A stretch of 64,000 nucleotides of DNA from Desulfovibrio cuneatus DSM 11391 (lineage in GTDB: Bacteria; Desulfobacterota; Desulfovibrionia; Desulfovibrionales; Desulfovibrionaceae). The stretch covers positions 1-64,000 of the forward strand of contig NZ_AUCY01000017.1 of assembly GCF_000430005.1 (NCBI RefSeq), written 5' to 3'. Positions 51,737 to 59,460 of the stretch are shown here, in pieces; position 1 is the stretch's first letter, and each line of letters opens with the position of its first letter. The notes under the pieces were generated by a model that saw nothing but the letters and a program-made list of their open reading frames with translations, searched no databases and was not told the origin of the DNA. The position numbers and the translations under genes were made by a program.

Positions 51737-52117
51737 TTATTCCCCCATTCTTGCTTCCATGTCAAGTAATTTCACCTGAAATTGGGGTGCTGCTTCCCCC
51801 TGCAAACACACACTGCCAATGATTTCACAGGGCAGCATAATAAGTGGCACTCCCTGCTATAACATGCTGTGCCCAAGGGCACTGGATGGCAAAAGCAACG
51901 GGCAGCCACGCGCATCATTACTATAGGTTAGGAAAGAACACGAAAGCCCTAGGCCGGAAGTCTGCTATGCCTTGTTCCTCCAAAACTCGGCTGATGTATG
52001 CCACAAGTACTCCCTGTGAATTCATCATCCTTTCAGACCAATCCAAAACTGCGTTTGCGAACTACGTTCATTACAGGAAGCCGCCCAAGGCTATTTTGCA
52101 ATAGCTGTTATTTAGTA

Positions 52118-52146
52118 TTGATTAAAACCCCTAATCACCGTAGTAT
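52118..52146 (+). promoter_or_regulatory. Sigma70-type promoter of the rnf operon
   Basis: TTGATT (52118-52123) is followed after exactly 17 bases by TAGTAT (52141-52146). The leader to the cytochrome start would be about 165 bases. Confidence 0.6.
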
Positions 52147-52318
52147 ACACCAGCAACTAGGGATATGCATTGCCACTTCCCGCCCCGGGCGGGCATACCC
52201 CTGCCTGTGCCATGGTGCCCTCTATGTGCGCCTGCACGTTCACTTTTATTTCCCTGGCTCTCCTTGTTTTTTTCCTGAAACGTGCAAGCCTGCTCTTGGT
52301 ATTGCTGAAGGAGGCGTT

Positions 52319-52879
52319 TTGAAAAAGCAGTCAAAACAAATGGCTATTCTGGGTTTGGCGCTGGTTGCAGTGGCGCTGGTTGCCTATGCCCTGCCAACCC
52401 CCACCCCCGCGCTGCCGCACCGCATTTTGCTGCCCAACAGTGGCGGCTTTGTTGTGTTTACCCATGCTGCCCATACCAAATATGAGGCAAGCACATGCGC
52501 CACCTGCCACCACGACCTCAATATTCCTGAGCGGGAACTGAGCGACGCACAAAAGCAAGACCCCTCCAAGGTTTTTGCCTGTGCAGACTGCCACGGCGCA
52601 GCCGAAAACCCGACCTTTAAAGAAAGCCACAAGCAACGCTTTGCCAACAAAAATGACGGCGGCGCCACATGCGTGGCCTGCCACCACACGGAAAGCCTGC
52701 CCACAAGCGACGCTACCCTTTCCCCCCAGGCTGTGGCCAAGTTGGAATTTAGCGGCTGCAAGGAATGCCACGCCGAAATGCCAGGCCGCATGGATGCCTT
52801 CCACGCAAGTTGCGCTGGTTGCCATGAAAAAGTGAAAAAAGGGCCGCCCAGCAAAGCCTGCCAACAGTGCCACATGTAG
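52319..52879 (+). CDS. Hexaheme c-type cytochrome of the Rnf operon
   Basis: 186 residues. A signal-anchor-like N-terminus (hydrophobic about residues 9-25) is followed by six CxxCH heme sites: CATCH, CADCH, CVACH, CKECH, CAGCH and CQQCH, with extra His residues such as FTHAAH for bis-His ligation as in class III cytochromes c. The start is TTG at 52319: AAGGAGG lies four bases before it, while the first in-frame ATG (52340) is too far from any ribosome site. It is the first gene of rnf, so it is the likely periplasmic electron partner of the Rnf complex. Confidence 0.9.
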   Translation: MKKQSKQMAILGLALVAVALVAYALPTPTPALPHRILLPNSGGFVVFTHAAHTKYEASTCATCHHDLNIPERELSDAQKQDPSKVFACADCHGAAENPTFKESHKQRFANKNDGGATCVACHHTESLPTSDATLSPQAVAKLEFSGCKECHAEMPGRMDAFHASCAGCHEKVKKGPPSKACQQCHM

Positions 52880-52891
52880 GGGGAAAGCACC

Positions 52892-54055
52892 ATGAAGTTA
52901 CCGTTTATTCTTACTGTACCAGACAAACGCCCCCTGGAAGAACTGCACGGCATTACCACCCTGCTTGTTCCCCTGCGCGGGCATACCCCAGCCCCTGGCA
53001 TTAAAAAACGTGTGGCCGTTGCAGCCAACACACTGCTTGCTGTGCACCCTGATATGTCCCTGGGTGAAATACACGCCCCCTGCCATGGGGTAATAAAAGA
53101 TATTACAACCCGGCATATAGAAATTACCTGCTCCGAAACACCACCGGAAGGGAGTCAGCCAGTGGCCCCCGTTGACCTTTCCGGGTTGGACGAACAAGCC
53201 CTGTGCAGCGCCTTAAAAGAGCTTGGGGTTTCCGTGCGGCCCTTTACCCGACCCTGCAAAACCTTTGTTATTAACGGGCTGAACCCGGAACCGGGCATGG
53301 TGTACGCAGAAGAAGTTTTAAGCAGCCACAAGGAAATTCTGGAAGCAGCACTTGCCCTGGTCAAACGCCTTTCCCCCGCCACCGAATATGTGCTGGCCCT
53401 GCCTGCGGGCAGCCACAGCAGCCTGGATGGCGTCCGCAACCACTTTGTGAAGCCGGAATACCCCATCAGCCTGGCCCGCCCCCTTATTAAAAGCCTCACA
53501 GGCAAGGAGAGCAGCGCAGACATAACCATGGTGCGCCTGCACGACCTGTTTGGCCTGGGCCTTGTTGCCAGCTCCGGGTTGCCGCGCACCCGCACGGTTC
53601 TTTCCGTGCAAGGCCGCAACTTTCTGGTGCCTGTGGGCACCCCTGTGCAAACACTGCTGGACGCTGCCCTGGTAAGCGTAAAGCCCGGCGACACGGTGGT
53701 ACTTGGCGGGGCCATGCGCGGGCAAGCGCTTTCTGTTCTGCGCCGCGGTATTGATAAAGACAGCGAAGCGTTGCTGCACATACCCGCCAAAAGCAAACCC
53801 CCGCTGGAAGATAACCCCTGCATTAACTGCGGTGCGTGCATTTATGCCTGCCCCATGCGCCTGCGCCCCAACATGCTTAGCCGTTATGCGGAATTTGAAC
53901 AGTATGAAGGGTGCACCAAGGAATACCTGAACCGCTGTATTGAATGCGGGTTGTGCGGCTATGTATGCCCTGCCTGCCGCCCTATGCAGCAGTACTTCCG
54001 CAACGCCAAAAAGGCCCTGGGAATTGAAACGCTCCAGCGCAGGTTGCCGCTGTAG
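52892..54055 (+). CDS. rnfC: Rnf complex subunit RnfC, lacking the NADH/flavin loop
   Basis: 387 residues. N-terminal sandwich domain (EIHAPCHGVIKDI), a central SLBB-like part and two [4Fe-4S] motifs, CINCGACIYACP at about 309-320 and CIECGLCGYVCP at about 350-361. Usual RnfC proteins have a glycine-rich GLGGAGFPT loop and an NGAECEP turn that hold flavin and NADH. Here the first is missing as a short deletion (GVSVRPFTRPCKTFVINGL) and the second reads NGLNPEPG. So it probably keeps its place as a peripheral Fe-S subunit but does not bind NADH. Confidence 0.92.
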   Translation: MKLPFILTVPDKRPLEELHGITTLLVPLRGHTPAPGIKKRVAVAANTLLAVHPDMSLGEIHAPCHGVIKDITTRHIEITCSETPPEGSQPVAPVDLSGLDEQALCSALKELGVSVRPFTRPCKTFVINGLNPEPGMVYAEEVLSSHKEILEAALALVKRLSPATEYVLALPAGSHSSLDGVRNHFVKPEYPISLARPLIKSLTGKESSADITMVRLHDLFGLGLVASSGLPRTRTVLSVQGRNFLVPVGTPVQTLLDAALVSVKPGDTVVLGGAMRGQALSVLRRGIDKDSEALLHIPAKSKPPLEDNPCINCGACIYACPMRLRPNMLSRYAEFEQYEGCTKEYLNRCIECGLCGYVCPACRPMQQYFRNAKKALGIETLQRRLPL

Positions 54056-54163
54056 CCACTGCCTTACAGTAACAGCGCACCTAGCGGCAACAGACGCACA
54101 ACGTAACATGCTCTGGTTTGATACCACCGCCGCATGCACGACTACGGGAAGGAGAACAGGATA

Positions 54164-55129
54164 ATGCCTCAAACAGACATCACCTCCCTCAAACCGCTTT
54201 TTGTGGTAGAAACACCACCATACATACATAATGGCGTCACCATTCATGGTATGATGCGCGACACCTTGCTGGCCCTGGCACCAGCCATGATTCTGGCCCT
54301 TATGGCCCACGGGGTTGCGGCATTTCGGGTAATGGCCCTGGCTGCCGGGGTAAGCGTGCTGGTAGAAGCCATGTGCGTACGCATTGCTGGGCAGAAATTG
54401 CGCATTGAAGACGGCACAGCCCTTATTTCCGGCCTGCTACTGGCCTTTATGTTACCAGTCCAGGCCCCCTGGTGGCTGGTTACTGTGGGCGCTGCGCTTT
54501 CCATGATTTTGGGCAAACATGTGTTTGGGGGCCTTGGGGCAAACCCGTTGTGCACCCCCCTGGTGGGCTGGGCCTGCCTCAGCATTTCCTGGCCCAAGTA
54601 CATGAACCCAAGCGCCATGGTGCTGAATACCGACTTCCTCGACCCCCTGCTACGCCTGAAATTTTTTGGCACCCAAAGCATTTCCCCGGAAACATACAAA
54701 GCTCTGCTTATGGGTGAACAGCTTGGCGGCCTTGGCAGCGTCTATATTGGTGCCCTGCTGCTTGGGGGTATTTTTCTGGTGGCCCGCAGGGCCGTGCGCT
54801 GGGAAATTCCGGTAGCCTACCTGCTTACCGTGTATGCCCTTGGCTTTTTACTGTGGCACATTGACCCTGCCCGCTACATTGCGCCAGAGCTGTACCTGCT
54901 TACCGGCAGCACTGTATTTGCCGCTTTCTTTCTGGCAACCGACCACCCCTCCTCCCCATTTTCCATATGGGGCATTGCCCTGTTTGGTGTTTTGGCAGGG
55001 GCCATGACAGTGCTTATTCGGGCCTATGGCACACACCTTGATGGTGCCCCCTTCGCCATTTTGCTGGCCAACCTGTTTACCCCGTTGCTGGACATGATTC
55101 GCCCTGTTCCCTGGGGCGGGAGGAAGTAG
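54164..55129 (+). CDS. rnfD: Rnf complex membrane subunit RnfD
   Basis: 321 residues with about nine to ten hydrophobic helices. The start at 54164 follows AAGGAG. Family features include LRIEDGTALISGLLLAFMLP, GGLGANPLCTPLVGWA and FFLATDHPSSP. In most RnfD proteins an SGAT/TSAT-type motif carries a covalently bound FMN on Thr after the conserved NP helix; here that region reads MNPSAMVLNTDFLDPLL and I find no such motif. RnfD forms part of the ion-translocating membrane core with A, E and G. Confidence 0.93.
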   Translation: MPQTDITSLKPLFVVETPPYIHNGVTIHGMMRDTLLALAPAMILALMAHGVAAFRVMALAAGVSVLVEAMCVRIAGQKLRIEDGTALISGLLLAFMLPVQAPWWLVTVGAALSMILGKHVFGGLGANPLCTPLVGWACLSISWPKYMNPSAMVLNTDFLDPLLRLKFFGTQSISPETYKALLMGEQLGGLGSVYIGALLLGGIFLVARRAVRWEIPVAYLLTVYALGFLLWHIDPARYIAPELYLLTGSTVFAAFFLATDHPSSPFSIWGIALFGVLAGAMTVLIRAYGTHLDGAPFAILLANLFTPLLDMIRPVPWGGRK

Positions 55130-55130
55130 C

Positions 55131-55703
55131 ATGCGTGAAATAGCAAGCATGATAGTGGTGCTTTCTGTTATTTGCGGCATTTCCGGGTTTGCTCTTTCCT
55201 ACTTGAAGCAAACCACACAGCCCATTATTGAAAGCCAGGTGCTGAGATATGTCCAGGGGCCAACCATACGCAATGTGTTCCCCGCTGCCACCAACAACCC
55301 CATTGAAGAACGCAAGGAAGTGGCCCTCAGCACTGGCCTTACCACCGTGTTTCCCTTTCGGGTAGAAGGTAAACTGGTGGGGGTTGCCCTGGAAACACAG
55401 GGCAAGGGCTATGGCGGCAACATTGGCGTTATGGTGGGTTTTGATGTGCAGCGCGATGTGTTGCTTGGTATTGGCATTACCCAAATGAAGGAAACCCCCG
55501 GCCTGGGCACCAACGTGGCCCAACCTAGGTTTACCGGGCAATTCCCCGGCAAAGGGTTGGAAATAGCGTTAAAGTCTGCCGGTGGCACCATCGACGCTGT
55601 TTCTGGCGCAACCATTTCTTCCACGGGCACGGTGCTGGCTGTGCAACAGGCCGCAACGCTGTATAAAGAGCTGAAACCGCAAATCAGCCAGCTTTGGCCT
55701 TAG
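55131..55703 (+). CDS. rnfG: Rnf complex subunit RnfG (covalent FMN)
   Basis: 190 residues: one N-terminal membrane helix and a periplasmic FMN-binding domain. DAVSGATISSTG contains the Thr to which ApbE attaches FMN, so this subunit is set up for electron transfer on the outer side. GGAGGAAG at the end of rnfD gives its ribosome site, one base separates the two genes. It is the most likely direct partner of the hexaheme cytochrome. Confidence 0.95.
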   Translation: MREIASMIVVLSVICGISGFALSYLKQTTQPIIESQVLRYVQGPTIRNVFPAATNNPIEERKEVALSTGLTTVFPFRVEGKLVGVALETQGKGYGGNIGVMVGFDVQRDVLLGIGITQMKETPGLGTNVAQPRFTGQFPGKGLEIALKSAGGTIDAVSGATISSTGTVLAVQQAATLYKELKPQISQLWP

Positions 55704-55860: not shown

Positions 55861-56532
55861 ATGGCATCTATGTGGCAAGAATTCTCCAAAGGGCTATGGA
55901 AGGAAATTCCTCCCTTCCGGGTTGTACTTGGGCTGTGCCCCACCCTGGCGGTCACCAAGTCGGCGGAAAACGGGTTGGGCATGGGCGTTGCCGTTATCTT
56001 TGTGCTCGTTCTTTCCAACGTGCTCATTTCCGCCGTGCGCGGCATTATTCCCAAAAAAGTGCGCATTGTGTGTTTTATTGCCATTTCAGCCACCCTGGTG
56101 GTGGCGGTGGAACTGCTTATGCAAGCCTTCACCTACCCGCTTTACCAGCAGCTTGGCATTTTCGTGCCGCTCATTGTGGTAAACTGCATTATTCTTGGCA
56201 GGGCAGAAGCATTTGCTGCCAAAAACCCGGTGCACTTGGCCCTGGCTGACGGCCTGGGCATGGGCATGGGCTTTACCATAGCCCTTACCCTTATTGGTTC
56301 CATCCGCGAATTGCTGGGCACAGGGGGCATTTTTGGGCACAATGTCATGTGGAACGGGTTTGAGCCCTTTGGCATAATGGTGGAAGCACCGGGGGCATTC
56401 CTGGCACTTGGCACTGTAGTAGCCCTGATGAACTTTTACACAGCCTGGGCTGCACGCAGGGCCGGGCTTGAAGTACCTGAAAATGCTTCGTGCCAGGGTG
56501 GGTGTTCTGGTTGTGCCACAGGCCAACGCTAA
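55861..56532 (+). CDS. rnfE: Rnf complex membrane subunit RnfE
   Basis: 223 residues with about six membrane helices. GLCPTLAVTKSAENGLGMG and VVNCIILGRAEAFA are family signatures; the Cys of VNCIILG is one of the ligands of the [2Fe-2S] cluster shared with RnfA in the middle of the membrane. The C-terminus ends in a Cys-rich stretch (ASCQGGCSGCATGQR) that is unusual. GGGAGG precedes the ATG. It is separated from rnfG by a 157-base gap with repeat family A. Confidence 0.95.
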   Translation: MASMWQEFSKGLWKEIPPFRVVLGLCPTLAVTKSAENGLGMGVAVIFVLVLSNVLISAVRGIIPKKVRIVCFIAISATLVVAVELLMQAFTYPLYQQLGIFVPLIVVNCIILGRAEAFAAKNPVHLALADGLGMGMGFTIALTLIGSIRELLGTGGIFGHNVMWNGFEPFGIMVEAPGAFLALGTVVALMNFYTAWAARRAGLEVPENASCQGGCSGCATGQR

Positions 56533-56566: not shown

Positions 56567-57139
56567 ATGGACTATTTCTTAATGTTCATTAGCGCAGTGT
56601 TTGTAAACAACATTGTGTTGGCGCAATTTCTTGGGCAATGCCCTTACCTTGGTTGTTCCAAGGAAAAAGGCGTTTCCATTGGCATGGGCATGGCCGTTAT
56701 GTTCGTAGCTGTTATGGCCACTGCCGTTACCTGGCTTGTGCAAAAATATGTGCTGGACCCATTTGCCCTTGGCTACCTGCAAACCATAGTTTTTATTCTT
56801 ATTATTGCAGGGCTTGTGCAGTTTGTGGAAATGTTTCTCAAAAAAATAATGCCCCCGCTGTACAAGTCGCTGGGTATTTACCTGCCCCTTATTACCACCA
56901 ACTGTTGCGTGCTCGGCCTTGCCATTTTGGTGCAGCGCGACGCCATGGATTTCAGCACCTCTGTGCTCTACACCCTGTTTGCGACCCTGGGTTTTATGCT
57001 GGCCCTTATTCTTATGGCTGGCATACGGGAACGATTTGCCCTGTGCCGTGTACCACGCGCCTTGCAGGGAACCCCCCTGGGGCTGATTATGGCAGGGCTT
57101 ATGTCTTTGTGTTTCATGGCCTTTAAGGGAATGATTTAG
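56567..57139 (+). CDS. rnfA: Rnf complex membrane subunit RnfA
   Basis: 190 residues with about six membrane helices in the opposite topology to RnfE. VNNIVLAQFLGQCPYLGCS and TNCCVLGLAIL are family signatures, and the Cys of TNCCVLG together with that of RnfE hold the intramembrane [2Fe-2S] cluster. AAGGAG lies before the ATG. The stop codon abuts palindrome family B. Confidence 0.96.
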   Translation: MDYFLMFISAVFVNNIVLAQFLGQCPYLGCSKEKGVSIGMGMAVMFVAVMATAVTWLVQKYVLDPFALGYLQTIVFILIIAGLVQFVEMFLKKIMPPLYKSLGIYLPLITTNCCVLGLAILVQRDAMDFSTSVLYTLFATLGFMLALILMAGIRERFALCRVPRALQGTPLGLIMAGLMSLCFMAFKGMI

Positions 57140-57427: not shown

Positions 57428-58390
57428 ATGGTTCTTACATCCGTACTGACCCTTGCCGGCATTGGCTTAATCCTTGCTCTTATCCTTGTTGCCGCCTCCC
57501 TGGCCTTTCGGGTGGAAGAAGACCCCAGAGTGGAAGCAGTGCTGGAGGCTTTGCCCGGCGCCAACTGCGGCGGGTGTGGCTATGCCGGGTGTGAAGCCTA
57601 TGCCCAGGCAGTGCTTGCCTCACCAGATGTACCCGCCAACCTGTGTACGGTGGGGGGGAACGATACTGCCACCAAGGTCGGGGAAATTTCCGGCAAAACA
57701 GTAACTGCCACTGAACCCATGATTTGCTTTCGTCGTTGCAGCCGCCATGAAGGGCAGGTGGAACACCGCTACCACTACGTTGGGGTAAACACCTGTTCTG
57801 CTGCGGCCCAGCTTGAAGGCGGGCCCTACATGTGCAGTTGGAGCTGCCTTGGCTATGGCGACTGCATGCGGGCCTGCCCCTTTGATGCCATGGTGGTGCG
57901 CGACGACCTTATTGAGGTAATTACCTCCCGCTGTGTAGCTTGCGGTTGCTGCATTAGTGCCTGCCCACGCGGCATATTGCAAATAATTCCCCAGCGGGCA
58001 AGGGTTATGTGTTTTTGCGCCACCAAAGAAAAAATGAAAAACGTGGCCGATGTGTGCTCCGTTGGCTGTATAAACTGCTTGCAGTGCGTAAAGGCATGCC
58101 CTGCCCAAGCTATCAGCTATACCAACTTCCGCATTGAAATTAACCACAATGCCTGCCTTGCCTATGGCGACAAATGTGGCGAAGCCTGCGTGGCTAGCTG
58201 TAGCCGCAAAATTCTGCGCAACATGCGTGTGCATGGGCCTGCTGGCCTTATATGCACAGATGAAGCTGCCTCTCCCCAGGAATTAGGGCAAGAACAAAAA
58301 GACGATGACGCGACACAAGAGGGAACGGATGCAAAGGCAAGCCCACTGGCCGCACAAGAAACAGCCCCACAAGGTCAACCCAAAGAGTAA
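57428..58390 (+). CDS. rnfB: Rnf complex ferredoxin subunit RnfB
   Basis: 320 residues, the Cys-rich long form. A membrane anchor (about 5-25) is followed by a [4Fe-4S] domain with Cys47, 50, 55 and 73 (GANCGGCGYAGCEAYAQ), then ferredoxin-type clusters (CLGYGDCMRACP, CVACGCCISACP, CINCLQCVKACP) and further Cys at the C-terminus. RnfB takes electrons from reduced ferredoxin on the cytoplasmic side. A Gln/Asp-rich tail ends it. AAGGAA precedes the ATG; a 288-base gap with repeat family B separates it from rnfA. Confidence 0.96.
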   Translation: MVLTSVLTLAGIGLILALILVAASLAFRVEEDPRVEAVLEALPGANCGGCGYAGCEAYAQAVLASPDVPANLCTVGGNDTATKVGEISGKTVTATEPMICFRRCSRHEGQVEHRYHYVGVNTCSAAAQLEGGPYMCSWSCLGYGDCMRACPFDAMVVRDDLIEVITSRCVACGCCISACPRGILQIIPQRARVMCFCATKEKMKNVADVCSVGCINCLQCVKACPAQAISYTNFRIEINHNACLAYGDKCGEACVASCSRKILRNMRVHGPAGLICTDEAASPQELGQEQKDDDATQEGTDAKASPLAAQETAPQGQPKE

Positions 58391-58413: not shown

Positions 58414-59460
58414 ATGCTCTACCGTACCATAAATAGAAGAGCCTTTCTGCGCGGGGCAAGTGTTGCCGGGGTAGCTGTGCTTGCCGGGCAACTGGTGCCG
58501 GCCCCCCTGGCCCACGCAGCCAACGCCCTGCTCGGCAATACCACCCCCGCCATTACCCAGGAAACGTACCTGCTTATGGGCACCATGGTTACCCTTACGG
58601 CCCATGCCCCCCAACAAGAACTGGTGCTTGCCGCCTTTGCCGCAGCACAGCAGGAAATGGTTCGCCTTATTGATGTGTATAGCAGGCACACTAGCAGTTC
58701 TGCCCTTGGCACCCTGAACAGCCAGGGCAGCCTGAAAGACGCCCCCCCGGAGCTTGCCAGCCTGCTGCACCGGGCCATGGGCCTTGCCAAAATCACAGAA
58801 GGCCTGTTTAACCCTGCGGTGCAACCCCTGGTCGATTTGTTTGGGCGCAGCAGTACAGCAGCTCTCAAAGCCAGAATAAACACCCATGAACTGCACGAAG
58901 CCATGGCCCTGGCAGACCCTGCCGCTATTGCCCTGCAAGGCAAAAGCATTCGCCTGACCAGGGGGGGCATGGGCCTTACCTTAGATGGCATTGCCAAAGG
59001 TACCATTGCCGACGCAGCCAGCGCCGTGCTGCTTGCCCATGGCATAGGCAACTTTATGGTCAATGCTGGGGGCGACATTCGCGTGCAGGGCAATTCCCCC
59101 AAAGGAACGCCGTGGGTTATTGGCATTGAAAACCCCGCCCACAAAGGCTACCCGGCGGAAGCTGTGGCCCTTGCCACGGGTGCCATTGCCACCTCCGGCG
59201 GGTATGAAAATCGCTTTGACGCCATGGGTTCCACCCACCACCTGGTAAACCCCCTTACCGGGCAAAGCCCGCGCCTTGCCGGGGTTACGGTGGTGGCCCC
59301 CACTACGGAATTAGCCGACGCCCTGGCCACCGCGTTCTGCCTAATGCCCCCCACCCAAAGCATTGCCTTGTGCGCCGCCAGCCCTGGTATAGAGTGCCTG
59401 CTGTATGGCGAAAATGGAGAGCGCAGCACCAGCCAGGGGTGGCATTCGCAACTGGTATAA
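58414..59460 (+). CDS. apbE: FMN transferase ApbE (flavin donor for RnfG)
   Basis: 348 residues. Attaches FMN from FAD to Thr of target proteins in the periplasm. A twin-arginine-like signal (NRRAFLRGASVAGVAVLAG) starts it, followed by TYLLMGTMVTLT, LDGIAKGTIAD, VNAGGDIRVQG and TSGGYENRF of the family, and HHLVNPLTGQSP near the end. Its place at the end of the rnf operon and the SGAT motif in RnfG show the target. It has its own terminator. Confidence 0.93.
   Translation: MLYRTINRRAFLRGASVAGVAVLAGQLVPAPLAHAANALLGNTTPAITQETYLLMGTMVTLTAHAPQQELVLAAFAAAQQEMVRLIDVYSRHTSSSALGTLNSQGSLKDAPPELASLLHRAMGLAKITEGLFNPAVQPLVDLFGRSSTAALKARINTHELHEAMALADPAAIALQGKSIRLTRGGMGLTLDGIAKGTIADAASAVLLAHGIGNFMVNAGGDIRVQGNSPKGTPWVIGIENPAHKGYPAEAVALATGAIATSGGYENRFDAMGSTHHLVNPLTGQSPRLAGVTVVAPTTELADALATAFCLMPPTQSIALCAASPGIECLLYGENGERSTSQGWHSQLV

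Follow-up and report, generated by a model that had tools for sequence, protein, structure and literature searches.

An rnf operon of Desulfovibrio cuneatus with a hexaheme cytochrome gene, without recognisable NAD-side flavin sites in RnfC and RnfD, and with a probable periplasmic electron exit

In the Rnf complex of A. woodii, electrons follow a U-shaped path from ferredoxin through RnfB, the [2Fe-2S] centre of RnfA/E and the FMN of RnfG in the periplasm to the FMN and riboflavin of RnfD, and from there through the clusters and FMN of RnfC to NAD; the ion-translocating role is attributed to RnfA/E, and NAD is reduced with reduced ferredoxin at 7.1 U/mg (PMC11889175). In Desulfovibrio, the operon dhcA-rnfCDGEAB-apbE (DVU2791-2798; Dde_0580-0587) begins with a cytochrome gene (published order, PMC4841214), and both the presence of a cytochrome gene beside rnf and the idea of a link to the cytochrome c pool are known (PMC4841214, PMC4287179, PMC10920352, PMC11434368). 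Ferredoxin:cytochrome c3 activity has already been named as a possibility (PMC10920352; for D. gigas, PMC4287179), and models of Desulfovibrio energy metabolism treat Rnf as a ferredoxin:NADH oxidoreductase (PMC4215793). An attempt at ferredoxin:NAD-driven ion transport in D. alaskensis vesicles was "unsuccessful" (PMC4841214), and in the same species strong phenotypes were found in rnf mutants and none in mutants of the first gene of the operon, the decaheme cytochrome gene dhcA (PMC4215793, PMC4841214). The Rnf of Methanosarcina acetivorans is cytochrome-linked and does not reduce NAD(P), and RnfG has been proposed as its exit (PMC4023990).

The window analysed here, a stretch of 64,000 nucleotides from D. 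cuneatus DSM 11391, contains an rnf operon with the gene order of these Desulfovibrio operons. A six-heme cytochrome c gene is followed by rnfC, rnfD, rnfG, rnfE, rnfA, rnfB and apbE, all on the plus strand, and all six subunits of the complex (RnfABCDGE) are encoded within this single operon. As the earlier note on this DNA had stated, the first gene (52319..52879) encodes a hexaheme cytochrome, a class III-type protein of 186 amino acids with six CXXCH motifs, whereas D. alaskensis DhcA has ten hemes. The gene starts with TTG, is preceded by an AAGGAGG ribosome site (52308-52314), and encodes an N-terminal hydrophobic segment, from which a periplasmic or membrane-anchored product is predicted; on a longer open reading frame of the same gene (51998-52879), Pfam Cytochrom_CIII scored 38 bits, above its cut-off. 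In the named relatives closest to the window (L032-L034), the corresponding cytochrome has ten hemes and 282-311 amino acids, so hemes seem to have been lost from the window protein. The only match to a Rex operator upstream of the cytochrome gene had three mismatches and overlapped the start codon, and it was not used as evidence. Further class III cytochromes are encoded elsewhere in the genome. Among the sampled members of genus g1 (G019, G056, G078, G095, G107, G119, G131 and G141), a full-length match to the window RnfC was found only in the window genome, which makes the distribution of the operon in the genus patchy.

The second gene, rnfC (52892..54055), encodes a protein of 387 amino acids in which four segments of the FMN/NADH site are changed together. 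An alignment with RsxC of E. coli K-12 and a pair of canonical RnfC sequences shows a gap in the window protein over the 13 columns at GLGGAGFPTGVKL; GVS runs directly into VRPFTRPC, and GVSVRPF (residues 112-118, 53225..53245) stands at the place of the canonical GLGGAGFPTxxKL. NGLNPEPG (residues 128-135, 53273..53296) replaces NGAECEPY, with N128, N131, P132, P134 and G135 invariant in a 12-sequence family alignment. Two further segments (residues 190-220, 53459..53551) read YPISLARPLI where the canonical protein has YPQGAEKQLI, and RLHDLF where it has QNVGT, which changes YPQGxE to YPISLA and NVxT to RLHDL. Each of the solved RnfC proteins, from A. woodii, C. tetanomorphum and A. vinelandii, contains the loop, with NGAECEP, NAAECEP or NGSECEP as the second motif. 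The PF01512 domain was not recognised in the window RnfC (13.6 bits, cut-off 31.2; canonical RnfC 182 and E. coli RsxC 164), and its TIGR01945 score of 133.3 bits was below the cut-off of 245.95, compared with 504 and 572.5 for canonical RnfC (L067 and L097) and 596.8 for the E. coli protein. Both [4Fe-4S] motifs of the ferredoxin domain are present, with eight cysteines at C310-C320 and C349-C359 (53819..53968).

The open reading frame is intact and the RnfC fold is preserved in the structure prediction (AlphaFold mean pLDDT 96; the best PDB matches are RnfC chains, with a TM-score of 0.82, followed by NqrA), so the RnfC site is lost on a retained scaffold and the gene is not damaged. A degraded gene or a sequencing artefact was rejected for these reasons and because the change is conserved in relatives. 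The alignment and the structure prediction thus bear out what the earlier note had said of this gene, namely that GLGGAGFPT is absent, that NGAECEP reads NGLNPEPG, that both Fe-S motifs are intact and that rnfC is not degraded. RnfC of D. vulgaris (DVU_2792) has a mass of 43.5 kDa, compared with 47 kDa for C. tetanomorphum RnfC. A published primer sequence for D. alaskensis rnfC had no match in any of 288 genomes of the family.

RnfD, on the same return arm, has also lost flavin ligands. In an alignment of the window protein (54134..55129) with A. woodii RnfD, whose residue numbering and flavin roles are taken from PMC11889175, T156, A155 and N123 correspond to D, L and C: D170 (nt 54641) occupies the position of the covalent-FMN threonine T156 and C140 (nt 54551) that of the riboflavin ligand N123, while D249 is kept as D270. 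The outward arm is retained. RnfG (55131..55703) scores 268.7 bits against NF045876 RnfG_DVU2794 (cut-off 205) and has the covalent-FMN motif (S/TGAT) intact as SGAT, with T161 at nt 55611. The four cysteines that ligate the membrane [2Fe-2S] centre are present in RnfE (55861..56532; C26 and C109) and RnfA (56567..57139; C25 and C113). RnfB (57428..58390) is a polyferredoxin of 320 amino acids without a fused flavoprotein domain, and apbE (rnfF; 58414..59460; Pfam ApbE 213 bits) encodes the FMN transferase expected to flavinylate RnfG.

Compared with the canonical ferredoxin:NAD complexes of A. woodii, C. tetanomorphum, A. vinelandii and E. coli (Rsx), the window Rnf therefore shares the six subunits, RnfB, the RnfA/E cysteines, the RnfG flavin site and the fold and Fe-S clusters of RnfC, but it lacks the RnfC FMN/NADH motifs (GLGGAGFPT, NGAECEP, YPQGxE and NVxT) and the covalent-FMN threonine of RnfD, and it has a cytochrome gene in addition. 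As judged from these sequences, the absence of a recognisable FMN/NADH site from the window Rnf is supported. In this respect the window RnfC resembles NqrA of Na+-NQR, an RnfC homologue that likewise has no FMN/NADH site and is retained as a structural part. Na+-NQR differs in that NqrA lacks the Fe-S cysteines too, NqrB keeps its flavins and binds quinone, and input is through NqrF, whereas the window has an RnfC with eight cysteines and has RnfB. Loss of the RnfD flavinylation site has been reported, and one-way electron flow to the outside proposed, for two-subunit Nqr/Rnf-like complexes (PMC10979944, PMC8238504), which differ from the window Rnf in that they consist only of RnfD-like and RnfG-like subunits, take electrons from NAD(P)H and lack the ion-pumping RnfA/E.

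The earlier note had also likened the locus to the Rnf of Methanosarcina with its MmcA cytochrome. The likeness would hold for function, in that the M. acetivorans complex is cytochrome-linked without NAD(P) reduction (PMC4023990), and a multiheme cytochrome c gene is in the operon in both. It does not extend to membership: the window subunits are far below all six NCBIfam rnf*_Methano cut-offs (RnfC 67 of 650, RnfD 164 of 400, RnfG 76 of 230, RnfE 216 of 350, RnfA 192 of 300 and RnfB 224 of 445 bits), and the M. acetivorans operon, unlike that of the window, encodes an extra membrane protein, MA0665. Because the M. acetivorans genome encodes a protein above the PF01512 cut-off, a measure of domain presence only, its RnfC may not share the same flavin-site loss. 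The published motif of Methanosarcina RnfD is SGTF (PMC4023990).

To place the operon among its relatives, 99 complete rnf operons, that of the window included, were collected from Desulfovibrionaceae and further families in the phylum, tabulated and divided into 67 non-canonical operons (66 relatives and the window), 30 canonical operons and 2 of a flavodoxin type. The RnfC loop was missing in 67/99 operons, including every cytochrome-linked Desulfovibrionaceae operon fetched. None of these 67 had the covalent-FMN motif of RnfD (TATPL, scored as TATP); one had a threonine at that column, but in a different context. All 30 canonical operons encode an RnfC with the loop, NGAECE, YPxGxE and N(V/I/A)xT, and TATP was present in each of the 28 canonical RnfD proteins that could be scored. 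With the two flavodoxin-type operons set aside, GGxFP and NGAECE in RnfC and TATP in RnfD were thus jointly kept in 28/28 scorable canonical operons and jointly lost in 67/67 loop-less ones. Other features were retained in the non-canonical class. The RnfG threonine was present in 65/67 operons and the RnfA/E cysteines in 65/65, and all eight RnfC cysteines were found in 67/67 (as in 30/30 canonical operons). In RnfD of the same class, Asp249 or Glu was present in 65/67 and Asn123 in 24/67, so riboflavin may still be bound by RnfD in many of these operons; the riboflavin Asn was gone in the other 43/67. We found no report of a double flavin-site loss in RnfC and RnfD of the Desulfovibrio-type group in the literature searched, and priority is not certain.

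The two classes also differed in their neighbours. A multiheme cytochrome gene, counted as one with three or more heme motifs, was in or adjoining 60/67 non-canonical operons versus 1/30 canonical operons, the single canonical case being outside the operon (Fisher p = 5e-17, with kinship ignored). The seven non-canonical operons without such a gene nearby were L077, L080, L084, L087, L091, L109 and L113. One operon of each type was present in four genomes (G028, G185, G305 and G412). The earlier note had regarded the missing RnfC motif as a local deletion. This was not upheld: every cytochrome-linked relative in the family shares the loop loss, which led us to reject a lineage-specific deletion, and the loss is wider, extending to YPQGxE, NVxT and the RnfD threonine.

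In a tree built on RnfD, RnfG, RnfE and RnfA after masking of the flavin columns, the non-canonical class formed one side of a fully supported branch, apart from one long row (L089). This locus was inside the canonical clade in the full tree and joined the non-canonical class when sampling was thinned, so a convergent second origin within the canonical clade was unsupported once sampling was thinned. Because the class forms one side of a single branch, the association between the cytochrome gene and the flavin-site loss is essentially one evolutionary event that has been kept since, or two if L089 is separate. At matched RnfA/E divergence, identity in the NuoF-like domain of RnfC was 23-35% within the non-canonical class versus 56-60% within the canonical class; in the Fe-S domain it was 38-51% versus 45-50%, and RnfG identity was about equal in both classes. 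These values point to relaxed selection on the flavin/NADH domain of RnfC and not on its Fe-S domain.

The same data bear on whether the complex is still a ferredoxin:NAD oxidoreductase, with FMN and NADH bound in a remodelled site on the conserved NGLNPEPG turn. That turn is strongly conserved, and we take it to resemble the EPG of NuoF; the RnfC fold is retained as well. Although ferredoxin:NADH activity is assumed for D. alaskensis in the literature (PMC4215793), we consider a remodelled NAD site very unlikely, as the glycine-rich loop, YPQGxE and NVxT are all gone, constraint is lost across the NuoF-like domain, the RnfD threonine is gone too and the published D. alaskensis vesicle assay failed (PMC4841214).

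An NAD role might alternatively be covered if the genome encoded another Rnf, of the canonical type. This was rejected: a single RnfD/NqrB match and no canonical RnfC were found in the window genome, and its only other RnfC_N/PF01512 match, which is also the only PF01512 protein found there, is a PduS-like protein. This RnfC paralogue (G000:C34; L001 370-2272) has GAGGAGLP and NGASCEP intact and is followed by a microcompartment shell protein gene.

Since the outward arm has all its parts and both subunits of the return arm, RnfD and RnfC, lack flavin sites, the simplest working complex would end at RnfG. With the NAD-side flavin sites gone in two subunits and a multiheme cytochrome gene adjoining, Rnf electrons probably go to the periplasm in D. 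cuneatus and in a large group of relatives. We infer that the cofactors are absent where their motifs are, and also infer the exit at RnfG, the cytochrome acceptor and the direction of flow. The reading that we prefer, and judge reasonably likely, is an ion-pumping Rnf with its NAD-side half dismantled, from which electrons leave at RnfG to periplasmic c-type cytochromes. Ferredoxin electrons would enter at RnfB, pass to the [2Fe-2S] centre of RnfA/E as the next, ion-coupled step, and then arrive at the covalent FMN of RnfG, which faces the periplasm; from there they would be transferred to the hexaheme cytochrome encoded in the operon, to the pool of soluble cytochrome c3, or to both, and the return via RnfD and RnfC to NAD would not be taken. 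If this is true, RnfC and RnfD are unable to reach NAD, which would simply explain the failure of the D. alaskensis ferredoxin:NAD vesicle experiment.

Driven by an ion-motive force, electrons could also take this route in the opposite direction, yielding reduced ferredoxin. A cytochrome-linked Rnf that works mainly in reverse, with electrons from periplasmic hydrogen or formate passing through cytochrome c3 to RnfG and being lifted to ferredoxin by the ion-motive force, would have the same anatomy, and rnf is needed for growth of D. alaskensis on hydrogen and formate (PMC4841214, PMC4215793). The lower proton-motive force of a D. alaskensis rnfA mutant on lactate nevertheless fits the forward direction (PMC4841214), and we give the reverse mode the least credence of all the readings considered.

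The change of partner from NAD to a cytochrome that the earlier note proposed is favoured by the missing FMN/NADH site, the lost RnfD site and the distribution of cytochrome genes (60/67 versus 1/30), but the operon's own cytochrome as the acceptor is at odds with the lack of phenotype in dhcA mutants (PMC4215793, PMC4841214). Since dhcA is dispensable where rnf is essential in D. alaskensis, a different periplasmic cytochrome may serve, and RnfG may transfer electrons directly to other cytochromes. Other observations also count against an exit at RnfG to cytochromes: no multiheme cytochrome gene is nearby in 7/67 non-canonical operons, the association of such a gene with the class is essentially one event, riboflavin may still be bound by RnfD in many operons, and none of the eight RnfC cysteines varies, for which a dead return arm gives no reason. 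The retained RnfC clusters suggest a structural job or another cytoplasmic partner.

Such a partner could be flavodoxin, a second ferredoxin or a flavoprotein docking on RnfC, reached by a return through RnfD (with riboflavin only) and the RnfC Fe-S clusters, with the cytochrome as an optional side exit. The invariant cysteines and conserved Fe-S domain of RnfC, the Asp249/Glu retained in RnfD and the dispensable dhcA of D. alaskensis are in keeping with this arrangement, as are the proposal that an RnfG-type flavin reaches the RnfD flavin without covalent FMN in Nqr/Rnf-like complexes (PMC10979944) and the combination of a loop-less RnfC with a flavodoxin gene in a third Rnf class of the phylum. 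However, the covalent-FMN site of RnfD is gone in 67/67 operons and the riboflavin Asn in 43/67, the flavodoxin class retains both RnfD sites, and a gene for a cytoplasmic carrier is absent from the window operon. A non-NAD cytoplasmic partner is thus unlikely, if still worth considering, and we retain the exit at RnfG as the preferred reading.

Several related variants were observed in the phylum. The third class (L131, L132, L151 and L152) has the order rnfG-E-A-B-flavodoxin-rnfC-rnfD, a loop-less RnfC, an RnfD with its flavin threonine kept and no cytochrome, which suggests a ferredoxin:flavodoxin Rnf. In family f82 (L078, L083, L094, L095 and L096), a short loop-less RnfC-like gene (358-391 amino acids) adjoins an RnfB-like gene and RnfD was not detected in the stretch; this is apparently an RnfB/RnfC pair without the membrane core. 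Several Desulfovibrionaceae have a pair of cytochrome-linked rnf operons, in which the cytochrome has five hemes in one operon and ten in the other (L050/L051, L052/L053, L048/L049, L054/L055, L059/L060 and L068/L069).

RnfB itself is about 700 amino acids long in 35/61 non-canonical operons (L048-L055, L057, L059, L060, L063-L066, L068, L069, L071-L076, L082, L084, L085, L087, L090, L092, L093, L099, L113, L127, L133 and L134) and in 0/30 canonical ones, and the three long proteins that were scanned consist of RnfB fused to a Fer4_20 and Pyr_redox_2 (NfnB/GltD-like) module. For Desulfovibrionaceae, this feature has been taken as loss of rnfB (PMC11434368); the supposed loss looks like a fusion. 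The length and the fused module would be compatible with a pyridine-nucleotide link shifted to the input, where NAD(P)H and ferredoxin would both enter at RnfB and electrons exit to the cytochrome, or the reverse. The window RnfB, however, has 320 amino acids and no such module, and a separate subunit is absent from the window operon, so an input-side link would be limited to relatives unless a separate subunit provides it. For the window we hold it to be highly improbable, a little more so than a remodelled NAD site.

Taken together, the sequence evidence on the Desulfovibrio-type Rnf favours ferredoxin:cytochrome c3 over ferredoxin:NAD. There is about an even chance, in our estimation, that an Rnf branch found across the phylum, to which most if not all Desulfovibrio Rnf would belong, is a "half-U" ferredoxin:cytochrome c ion pump that ends at RnfG, with roughly half of its members carrying an NAD(P)H flavoprotein module fused to RnfB and the pyridine-nucleotide contact thereby moved from the exit to the entrance. 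If so, the return arm of Rnf would be separable from its ion-pumping core, and the name-based annotation of Rnf as ferredoxin:NAD would be wrong for the whole clade. In Desulfovibrio energy models, NADH made by Rnf feeds a proposed Hdr-Flox cycle, and these energy schemes would need to be redrawn if RnfC and RnfD are unable to pass electrons to NAD.
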